A DNA stretch of 64,000 bases from contig NZ_JANHDM010000001.1 in NCBI RefSeq assembly GCF_024494685.1, positions 372,001-436,000 on the forward strand. Reading direction: 5' to 3'. The DNA comes from Halorubrum rubrum. Its GTDB lineage: Archaea > Halobacteriota > Halobacteria > Halobacteriales > Haloferacaceae. The notes under the pieces were generated by a model, which worked only from the letters and a program-made list of their open reading frames with translations, was not told where the DNA came from and ran no database searches. Both the position numbers and the translations under genes were made by a program. Positions 3,839 through 57,898 of the stretch are shown one piece after another (the stretch's first letter is position 1; each line of letters begins with the position of its first letter).

Positions 3839-4042
3839 GTCGACCCAGGTGAGCGACGGCCGGCAGAGCGTCGCCTCCCGCCTCCCCAGCCTCGGTGGAC
3901 GGGCGGCCGCGGGACCGCTCCGCGGCCGCCCGCCACCTCCCTCGCGCGCGTTCCGCTCGGACTCCCGTCGGTCGTCCTCGCGGGTCGCACGCGCCGAAGC
4001 GGGCGGTCGGAGGAACGCGATGCCGGCGGGGTCGGCAGGGTC

Positions 4043-55578: not shown

Positions 55579-55752
55579 ACCCGAGGTTACGGTTCGACGA
55601 CGTTAACAGTTCGCACGAAACCGGGATCGGAGACGCGCGGAGCGGGCGACTCGCGAGGATCCGCGGGGTGATCTCGGATCGACGGTGTGATCGCCGATCT
55701 CCGTCCCCGCCGTGGGGAAGCGTCTTGGTCTGGGGAGGAGTGGGTACGCCGG

Positions 55753-56073
55753 ATGTATCTGGTGACGTTCCGCCTCGCTCCGGGCGAGTACGACGCGGAG
55801 TTCCACGAGTTGAACGACGCGATACAGGCGGCCGCCGAGGACACGGAGGGGTATCTGGGCAAACGGACGTGGCACGCACCGGACGACGAGGAGGTGCTCG
55901 TCGTCTACTACTGGGAGACGTTGGACGCGCTCGAGTCGTTCGGGGCGGATTCGGACCACGAACGCGCGAAACGGCGGTGGACGGAGTGGTACGACGCGTA
56001 CGAGGTCACCGTCACGGAGGTCGTCGAGGCGTACGGGAGCGGATTCGGCGAGGACGCGAACCCGTTCGTGTAA
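55753..56073 (+). CDS. Antibiotic biosynthesis monooxygenase-like (ABM) fold protein
   Basis: 106-aa protein with the dimeric ferredoxin-like ABM pattern: MYLVTFRLAPGEYDAEFHEL, AAEDTEGYLGKRTWHAPDDE, VLVVYYWETLDALESFGADS. Members oxidise quinones, degrade haem or are regulators; no haem or substrate residue can be named here. ATG at 55753, single gene divergent from the SPFH gene. Confidence 0.8.
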   Translation: MYLVTFRLAPGEYDAEFHELNDAIQAAAEDTEGYLGKRTWHAPDDEEVLVVYYWETLDALESFGADSDHERAKRRWTEWYDAYEVTVTEVVEAYGSGFGEDANPFV

Positions 56074-56230
56074 GGCTCGAACGAGAGGATTCCGTTGAAT
56101 CCTGTTCTTCGAATGCGTTCCCTACCGAGATCCTCGTCAGGATTTGAGTGCTAGTTGTACGGGTGTTTCGTGAATTATCGAGGTGATAAAAAGAATGTCG
56201 TTGCTGGCGCGGTGAACACCAGCAAAGCCC

Positions 56231-56368
56231 CAGTCGCGAGAACTCGCGCGGCTTGCTGTGCTCCTCGCTCGCTTCGCTCGCTGCGGTGTCGCCGGCGGCT
56301 CCGCCGCCGGCTGCCCGTGGCGCGTAGCGCCACGCTGCTTACTGCGCCGGGCTTCGTCCTCGCGACTG
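56231..56368. repeat. Hairpin-rich element with 10-bp inverted ends
   Basis: CAGTCGCGAG (56231-56240) and CTCGCGACTG (56359-56368) are perfect inverted repeats bounding 138 bp. Inside lie three hairpins: CGCGAG/CTCGCG (56235-56248), GCCGGCGG/CCGCCGGC (56291-56311), and GTGGCGC/GCGCCAC (56317-56333), plus a GCTCGCTTCGCTCGC tract. No protein is encoded. It looks like a small dispersed element (MITE-like) or structured RNA. The rest of the 56074-56596 gap shows nothing clear. Confidence 0.7.
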
Positions 56369-56596
56369 CCCCTTTGAGTCCCCCCGCAACTGCCCCGAAC
56401 CTCACACCTCCCCAGCCTCGCGGTTCGCGCTCTCCGAGCGCTCACCGCGTCCCTCGCGTTCCGGTCGCGGGCCGTCGGCCCGCTCCCGGGCGCGCCACCG
56501 CTCCGGCGATCGTTCGTTGTTTGGGCCCCTCCGAGCTACCGGTAGCATCCGTGAACGTCTGTCGGCTTTAACCGGATCGCGCACGGAGGGAGGTAC

Positions 56597-57898
56597 ATGC
56601 CCAGCGACGAGGATCCCGACCGCGAGTTCCGCACGCGAAGCGTCCACGCCGGGTCGACGCCGGACCCGACCACGGGGGCGCGCGCGACTCCGATCTACCA
56701 GACGACCGCCTACGAGTTCGACGACGCCGACCACGCCGCGCGGCTGTTCGCGTTAGAGGAGGCGGGCAACGTCTACTCGCGGATCATGAACCCGACGAAC
56801 GCGGCGCTCGAAGAGCGGATCGCCTCCCTCGAGAACGGCGTGGGCGCGATCGCCACCTCCTCGGGAATGGCGGCGCTCGACCTCGCGACGTTCATGCTGG
56901 CCGCCGCCGGCGACAACGTCGTCACCTCCTCGGCGCTGTACGGCGGTACCTACACCTACCTCACCCACTCCGTCGAGCGCCGGGGCGTCTCGACGCGGTT
57001 CGTCGACCCGCTCGACTACGAGGGGTACGCCGAGGCGATCGACGACGACACCGCCTACGTCCACCTCGAGACGATCGGTAACCCCTCGCTGGTCACCCCT
57101 GACATCGAGCGGATCGCGGAGATCGCCCACGAGCACGGCGTCCCGCTGTTCGTCGACAACACGTTCGCGACGCCGTACCTCTGCCGGCCGCTCGACCACG
57201 GCGCGGACCTCGTCTGGGAGTCGACGACGAAGTGGCTCACCGGCAACGGGACCACGATCGGCGGCGTCCTCGTCGACGGCGGCTCGTTCCCGTGGGGCGA
57301 GTACCCCGAGACGTTCCCGGAGATAGCGCAGGACAACCCCGCCTACCACGGGATCAACTACGTCGACGCGTTCGGCGAGGCGGCGTTCACGTTCGCGGCC
57401 GTCACCCGCGGCCTGCGCGACCTGGGCAACCAGCAGGCCCCCTTCGACGCGTGGAACACGCTCCAGCAGACCGAGTCGCTCCCGCTGCGGATGGACCGCC
57501 ACTGCGAGAACGCCGCGGTCGTCGCGGAGTACCTCGAGGAGCACGGGGACGTGGCGTGGGTGAACTACCCCGGCCTGGAGAGTCACGAGACCCACGAGGA
57601 GGCGAGCGAGTACCTCGAGGGCGGCTACGGCGGCATGATCACGTTCGGGCTGGAGGCCGGCTTCGAGGCCGCGAAGGCGACCGTCGAGAACACGGAGCTC
57701 GCCTCGCTGCTCGCGAACGTCGGCGACGCGAAGACGCTCGTGATCCACCCCGCCTCGACGACCCACCAACAGCTGACCGAGGAGGAGCAGGCGGCCGCCG
57801 GCGTCACCGGCGACATGGTGCGGCTCTCGGTGGGGATCGAGGACCCCGCGGACATCGTCGCCGACCTGGAGGCGGCGATCGAGACGGCGACGGAGTAA
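56597..57898 (+). CDS. O-acetylhomoserine sulfhydrylase / cystathionine gamma-synthase family enzyme
   Basis: 433-aa Cys/Met-metabolism PLP enzyme. TRSVHAGSTPDPTTGARATP at the start, YSRIMNPTNAALEERIASLE, SSGMAALDLATFML, and the PLP lysine in WESTTKWLTGNGTTIGG. Length and the FPEIAQDNPAYHG segment fit O-acetylhomoserine sulfhydrylase (MetY) rather than the shorter MetB, so direct sulfhydrylation to homocysteine is likely. No metX gene is in this window. Confidence 0.9.
   Translation: MPSDEDPDREFRTRSVHAGSTPDPTTGARATPIYQTTAYEFDDADHAARLFALEEAGNVYSRIMNPTNAALEERIASLENGVGAIATSSGMAALDLATFMLAAAGDNVVTSSALYGGTYTYLTHSVERRGVSTRFVDPLDYEGYAEAIDDDTAYVHLETIGNPSLVTPDIERIAEIAHEHGVPLFVDNTFATPYLCRPLDHGADLVWESTTKWLTGNGTTIGGVLVDGGSFPWGEYPETFPEIAQDNPAYHGINYVDAFGEAAFTFAAVTRGLRDLGNQQAPFDAWNTLQQTESLPLRMDRHCENAAVVAEYLEEHGDVAWVNYPGLESHETHEEASEYLEGGYGGMITFGLEAGFEAAKATVENTELASLLANVGDAKTLVIHPASTTHQQLTEEEQAAAGVTGDMVRLSVGIEDPADIVADLEAAIETATE

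Follow-up and report, generated by a model that had tools for sequence, protein, structure and literature searches.

The stretch at 56231–56368 of the window (64,000 nt of a Halorubrum rubrum contig, positions 372,001 to 436,000 of NZ_JANHDM010000001.1) is, in our assessment, probably the core of an old copy of a hairpin repeat, composite and non-autonomous, that is dispersed in Halorubrum, works like a REP/BIME family and has partly spread as MITE cargo. The family of composite hairpin repeats is itself real and well supported: its high copy number, the turnover of its sites between species, the covariation of its stems, the presence or absence of a module at recurring sites, and one IS5-type MITE copy were each observed directly. 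In the mechanism that we propose, the core (a long stem, a module in its loop, and a C-rich stretch with two hairpins) would spread among intergenic sites, its copies being kept foldable and kept alike, perhaps by gene conversion or re-insertion. Shell-bearing copies would be moved in trans by an IS5-family transposase, and core and module by some other hairpin-reading enzyme or a replication-linked process; most copies may be tolerated residents at gene ends, with no directional role for their neighbours. We found no description of this Halorubrum hairpin-repeat family in the literature searched, and no such repeat appears in the passages drawn on from PMC10544981, PMC10927574 and PMC6011602.

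A sequence-only reading had described a 138-bp element with perfect 10-bp inverted termini, enclosing three separate hairpins within a 523-bp gap. The inverted pair is indeed perfect, CAGTCGCGAG at 56231–56240 being the exact reverse complement of 56359–56368, and closes a nested hairpin; all three enclosed hairpins were located (GCTCGCTTCGCTCGC, 56267–56281; CCGGCGGCTCCGCCGCCGG, 56292–56310; CGTGGCGCGTAGCGCCACG, 56316–56334), and the intergenic gap does measure 523 bp, between the upstream gene end at 56073 and the downstream gene start at 56597. The extent and the role given to the ends have to be revised: the 138 bp form only the middle part of a longer element, at about 56087–56523 (Table 1), and the 10-bp repeats are not transposon ends; they are the inner stem of a core whose long stem spans CAAAGCCCCAG to CTGCCCCTTTGAG, while the terminal inverted repeats (TIRs) of the shell lie outside 56231–56368. 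Two open frames, of 102 and 138 codons, run across this interval, which we treat as probably non-coding because arm and loop lengths vary among copies. By itself a 10-bp inverted repeat is only slightly unexpected (one with a span of 100–180 bp arose in 27 of 500 first-order Markov sequences modelled on the gap), and folding of 56200–56400 gave z = –2.82; chance origin was rejected because of the family of copies and the covariation of their stems. The left TIR of the window copy is decayed, yet its distance from the core is that of other copies, and it starts 13 bp past a stop codon; the right TIR has been lost, resemblance to complete copies stopping near 56523 (partly by eye), and this copy has no target site duplication (TSD).

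Table 1. Parts of the element copy in the window. Strand follows the order left flank, core, C region; the right limit of the whole copy was set by eye, against L003, where resemblance to complete copies stops.
Feature	Position	Strand	Remark
Whole recognisable element copy	56087..56523	+	Left limit from TIR alignment; right limit by eye against L003
Decayed left TIR of IS5-type MITE shell	56087..56103	+	7 mismatches to GGCTCTGTTGAAATCCT, at the usual offset
Left-flank conserved box GTGCTAGTTGTACGGGTGTTTCG	56148..56170	+	
Core: CAAAGCCCCAG, long stem, loop, CTGCCCCTTTGAGTCC	56223..56381	+	
Inner stem, left arm	56231..56240	+	Left terminus of the sequence-only reading
Inner stem, right arm	56359..56368	+	Right terminus of the sequence-only reading
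Small hairpin of loop, GCTCGCTTCGCTCGC	56267..56281	+	
51-bp two-hairpin module in core loop	56288..56338	+	Hairpins 56292–56310 and 56316–56334
C motif ACCTCACACCTCCCCAGCCTC	56399..56419	+	
C region, first hairpin	56420..56449	+	
C region, second hairpin	56458..56491	+	
C region end box GCGCGCCACCGC	56490..56501	+	

The expectation of a family dispersed in intergenic DNA of Halorubrum was borne out when copies were counted by nucleotide search. The 151-bp query 56225–56375 matched at least 69 BLAST pieces in its own genome, where the best 40 of 221 candidates were scored, and the fetched parts of that genome held 52 copies with both the left (CAAAGCCCCAG) and the right (CTGCCCCTTTGAGTCC) conserved core flank. 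Among the matches listed, the usual order 3' of the core was C-rich CACCTCACGCCTCCCCARCCTC, a hairpin, TCCCTCGC, a second hairpin, and GCGCGCCACC. With up to two mismatches allowed, the own genome had 99 occurrences of the C motif, split 41 to 58 between the strands, and none of the reversed-pattern control; this, together with the covarying stems described below, is not the picture of a single unconserved copy. The motif is common in the first 280,000 positions of contig C11, which carries the window, and rare within the window, where a second, weaker instance with two mismatches lies near 3872 (C11:375872). Of 391 genomes sampled from the class, 65 carry the motif, namely all 46 of Halorubrum, with 12–178 copies each, and, patchily, 19 of the 345 other haloarchaea. 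Among the matches listed, named records with the exact motif were nearly all Halorubrum, the rest being two Halobellus loci, two of the MAG SW_8_68_21 and one of uncultured A07HR67; in Halorussus, Halobellus, SW_8_68_21 and A07HR67 we saw, by eye, core or C region without the IS5-type shell. A phage origin was rejected, there being no match among 50,697 phage records.

The fold is, judging from covariation, conserved. Core arms paired at 86.2% of positions (98 distinct pairs; the highest of 2000 shuffles gave 71.9%), and longer core arms at 89.1% (141 distinct pairs), against 28.7–52.2% when one arm was slid by 1–3. The first C hairpin paired at 77.6% (50 distinct arm pairs; shuffled maximum 67.6%), or at 92% over all distinct sequences, against 20–58% slid; the second covaries less clearly (55.5%, shuffled maximum 50.0%). 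Shuffling leaves relatedness in place, so these pairing percentages are not probabilities. The loci were picked by exact motif, which fixes the motif and leaves the arms free; among 225 C regions 21 were dropped, since the spacer motif was missing, and 42 of the remaining 204 had no second-hairpin limit, while the core-arm test used 171 of the 204. A known Rfam RNA was rejected, none scoring above its gathering threshold.

Such covariation could also stem from RNA function. Of 26 element copies in gaps, 11 lay between convergent genes, against 65 of 405 gaps, an excess, and 2 between divergent genes, against 95 of 405, a deficit; among the 47 of the 52 own copies that could be resolved, 17 were between convergent and three between divergent genes, and at co-directional sites the element ran along the genes in 15 cases and against them in 12. 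Gene calls came from a home-made composition heuristic, so that these orientation counts are rough, and neighbouring genes were named by eye. Selection for the fold of a structured RNA (small RNA, terminator or 3' UTR), with duplication as the means of dispersal, would account for the strong stem covariation, the conserved motifs that look unpaired and the excess between convergent genes; we nevertheless hold this reading unlikely, since the co-directional strands are balanced, the loop content is a shifting hairpin mosaic, Rfam gave no match above the gathering score, presence is patchy beyond the genus, and no constant promoter was seen. The same 15 to 12 split makes a directional terminator or 3' UTR role less likely. 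Contigs C20 and C21 of the draft assembly end in copies of the repeat, which may therefore break assemblies.

Outside the core, 26 of the 52 copies, about half, have the left-flank box GTGCTTGTAGTACGGGTGTTTCG at the standard offset, and conservation fades outwards. An outer inverted repeat was found through a site that is filled in a second species (G001) and empty in the own genome. Searching the genus (50 of 52 genomes) with the left end, followed by a script that paired the ends, yielded 27 listed TIR pairs, overlapping pairings included, 11 of them with a perfect 8-bp TSD. The intact own-genome copy, at C18:236819 (locus L003), measures 605 bp, has 17-bp TIRs with two and one mismatches and the perfect 8-bp TSD ACAAATTG on both sides, and carries core and C region inside. 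It is the only one of the 52 own copies with both TIRs and a TSD, and in most copies the TIRs match hardly better, if at all, than shuffled sequence does. The same two ends, about 65 bp on the left and about 55 bp on the right, also bound elements with unrelated cargo, and two of the 11 TSD-bearing elements, L184 and L180 in relatives, hold a transposase frame. The frame of L184 encodes an IS5-family transposase (NCBIfam E 1e-64; Pfam DDE_Tnp_1), with matches at E ≤ 1e-60 in 39 of 52 genomes and none at that threshold in the own genome; the subgroup of the shell is presumably ISH1.

The TIRs of L003, a TSD of constant length and autonomous elements with the same ends (L184 and L180) are marks of an IS5-family MITE, and one could suppose that the whole element is a plain MITE, moved solely by an IS5-family transposase and meaningless in its interior. 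The TIRs and TSD of L003 and the autonomous partner in relatives speak for this; it is improbable all the same, for the interior is better conserved than the ends, the stems covary, the shell does not explain all copies (shell-less cores occur in other genera and among part of the own copies), and G022, the genome with the most copies (178), has no candidate IS5 transposase. Across genomes, too, the IS5 transposase does not follow the copy number of the element. So IS5-type transposition accounts for some copies and something else for the rest, because G022 lacks a candidate transposase and other genera lack the shell. The options of MITE, REP-like element and structured RNA, offered side by side by the sequence-only reading, are therefore not exclusive: some copies are MITE cargo, the core is REP/BIME-like, and its fold covaries. 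Looking for target duplications and empty sites, as had also been proposed, gave a mixed result: L003 has its 8-bp TSD, but the shell-less core gave no clean empty site with exact ends, the two species differing across the whole gap.

Several neighbours of this system were recorded in passing. The elements L188:1510–2260, L199:1501–2045, L186:1501–1962, L183:1115–1564 and L205:1106–1567 share the IS5-type ends and have 8-bp TSDs, but their cargo is unrelated and lacks a transposase; in some cases it contains open frames resembling small membrane proteins, as if the ends carried passenger genes. L209:913–2455 (own C2 near 132076) holds an IS5-type transposase frame that is open and shares 38% identity with the L184 frame; of the 17-bp TIRs flanking it, one is exact and the other has four mismatches. 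In the own copies at C11:71215, C11:140278 and C18:54778, a CAAAGCCCCAGTCGCTCGG unit of about 50–60 bp stands in tandem to the left of the core, replacing the MITE shell, and the copies at C11:202777 and C20:452 have, at the end of the left flank, a hairpin resembling by eye an IS605-type right end, followed by a GGAGGATGTCA-like stretch.

Sites turn over between species. Stretches of contig C11 (436 kb, including the window) and of G001 (400 kb) are largely syntenic, with about 91% identity and some inversions; of 19 own element positions 11 have the motif at the G001 site and eight do not, and of 20 G001 positions 14 have it in the own genome, five do not and one was unmapped, where absence means falling below the motif threshold and at least one such site seems to retain a short remnant. 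In the C region, non-orthologous copies were nearer than the orthologue in all four pairs tested (4, 16, 16 and 7 of 27), the four being the only pairs that passed the flank threshold, and this would fit gene conversion or re-insertion. At 30 orthologous loci 5' of the gene at 56597, the element was clear in three (the own locus, L112 and L113); L111 keeps a remnant that lacks the inner stem, and no element was seen at the other 26, one of which gave a single weak match. The G001 locus, L112, seems by eye to retain the right TIR. A small upstream gene (window 55687–56073) is common to the own, L111 and L112 loci, and most of the 30 loci are without both this gene and the element, the flanking neighbours often adjoining.

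A recombination hot spot trading genes among sites was also considered. In G007, a junction links the right neighbour of the window copy, through the element, to a different left gene, which flanks another copy in the own genome, and at some sites the other species has a gene in place of the element. Gene order, however, was altered at three of 26 element gaps, against 33 of 146 others (P = 0.30, in the opposite direction); a hot spot of recombination or gene turnover was rejected on this test and is in our estimate very improbable, and the G007 junction is an anecdote, because element gaps show no extra change of gene order.

The dispersed composite repeat has a smaller unit nested within it. 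The 51-bp module, with its two hairpins, was found in 86 instances with distinct flanks over all loci in the set, 52 of them exactly 51 bp long; the first hairpin came in 31 different forms and the second in 32. It recurs at the same place in the core loop (36 instances), inverted at the 3' end of the C region (18), on the 5' side of the first C hairpin (11), and inverted in the right core arm (7); 14 instances are elsewhere, a few of which resemble coding noise by eye. Comparison of these four sites with module-less copies points to insertion directly before GC with no target duplication, as read by eye from the flanks, and the module ends form no inverted repeat. Core and nested module could be hairpin parasites of a new kind, in which a unit of about 50 bp inserts without target duplication, by a GC, into the hairpins of a larger repeat, in either orientation, through an archaeal enzyme that reads folded DNA and would need neither Y1 nor IS5; we offer this tentatively, as rather unlikely. 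The module is a concrete test system for the movement of folded DNA of about 50 bp.

The nearest account, in the parts drawn on, is that of the MITEs, PATEs and SMRs of Haloquadratum walsbyi (PMC3119063). Its SMR-A and PATEs are likewise haloarchaeal, devoid of transposase and of high copy number, but PATEs are tied to IS605-type ends, of which none were seen in the Halorubrum element (PMC3119063, in part). PATEs are defined by near-terminal palindromes related to IS605-type ends; in the Halorubrum element palindromes were seen, by eye, in the left and right flanks. SMR-A inserts within palindromes of other elements without target duplication, and the module seems to do likewise; SMR-A, however, is about 110 bp with terminal inverted repeats and targets IS605-type palindromes, whereas the module is shorter (51 bp in 52 of 86 instances), has two hairpins and resides in a different host element (PMC3119063, in the same parts).

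Bacterial REP, BIME and REPIN sequences, as far as the consulted parts of PMC2817692, PMC3116915 and PMC8266576 describe them, resemble the Halorubrum family in having about 100 copies per genome, in intergenic position and in mosaic arrays of hairpins; the Halorubrum repeat differs in being archaeal and in a core of about 280 bp as opposed to 20–40 bp. The foot of a REP hairpin carries a GTAG or CGTC tag, according to the portion used of PMC3733652. High copy number, intergenic sites, palindromes, hairpins and mosaic structure are what a true REP/BIME moved by a RAYT-type Y1 transposase would show, but Y1 (PF01797) is missing in 11 of 52 genomes, several of them with 70–128 element copies, the number of Y1 transposases is not correlated with that of element copies (rho –0.07, 46 genomes), and the own genome has Y1 fragments only. 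Y1/RAYT was rejected as the mover on these grounds, and we give this explanation hardly any credence. The composite repeat would add to the archaea a high-copy REP-like repeat, one that does not track the Y1 transposase by which bacterial REPs are explained. IS5-family MITEs with passenger sequence are alike in the 17-bp TIR, the 8-bp TSD and ends common with an IS5-family element (PMC10969869, in part); what sets the Halorubrum repeat apart from those described there is a structured cargo that is better conserved than its TIRs and also occurs without the shell.
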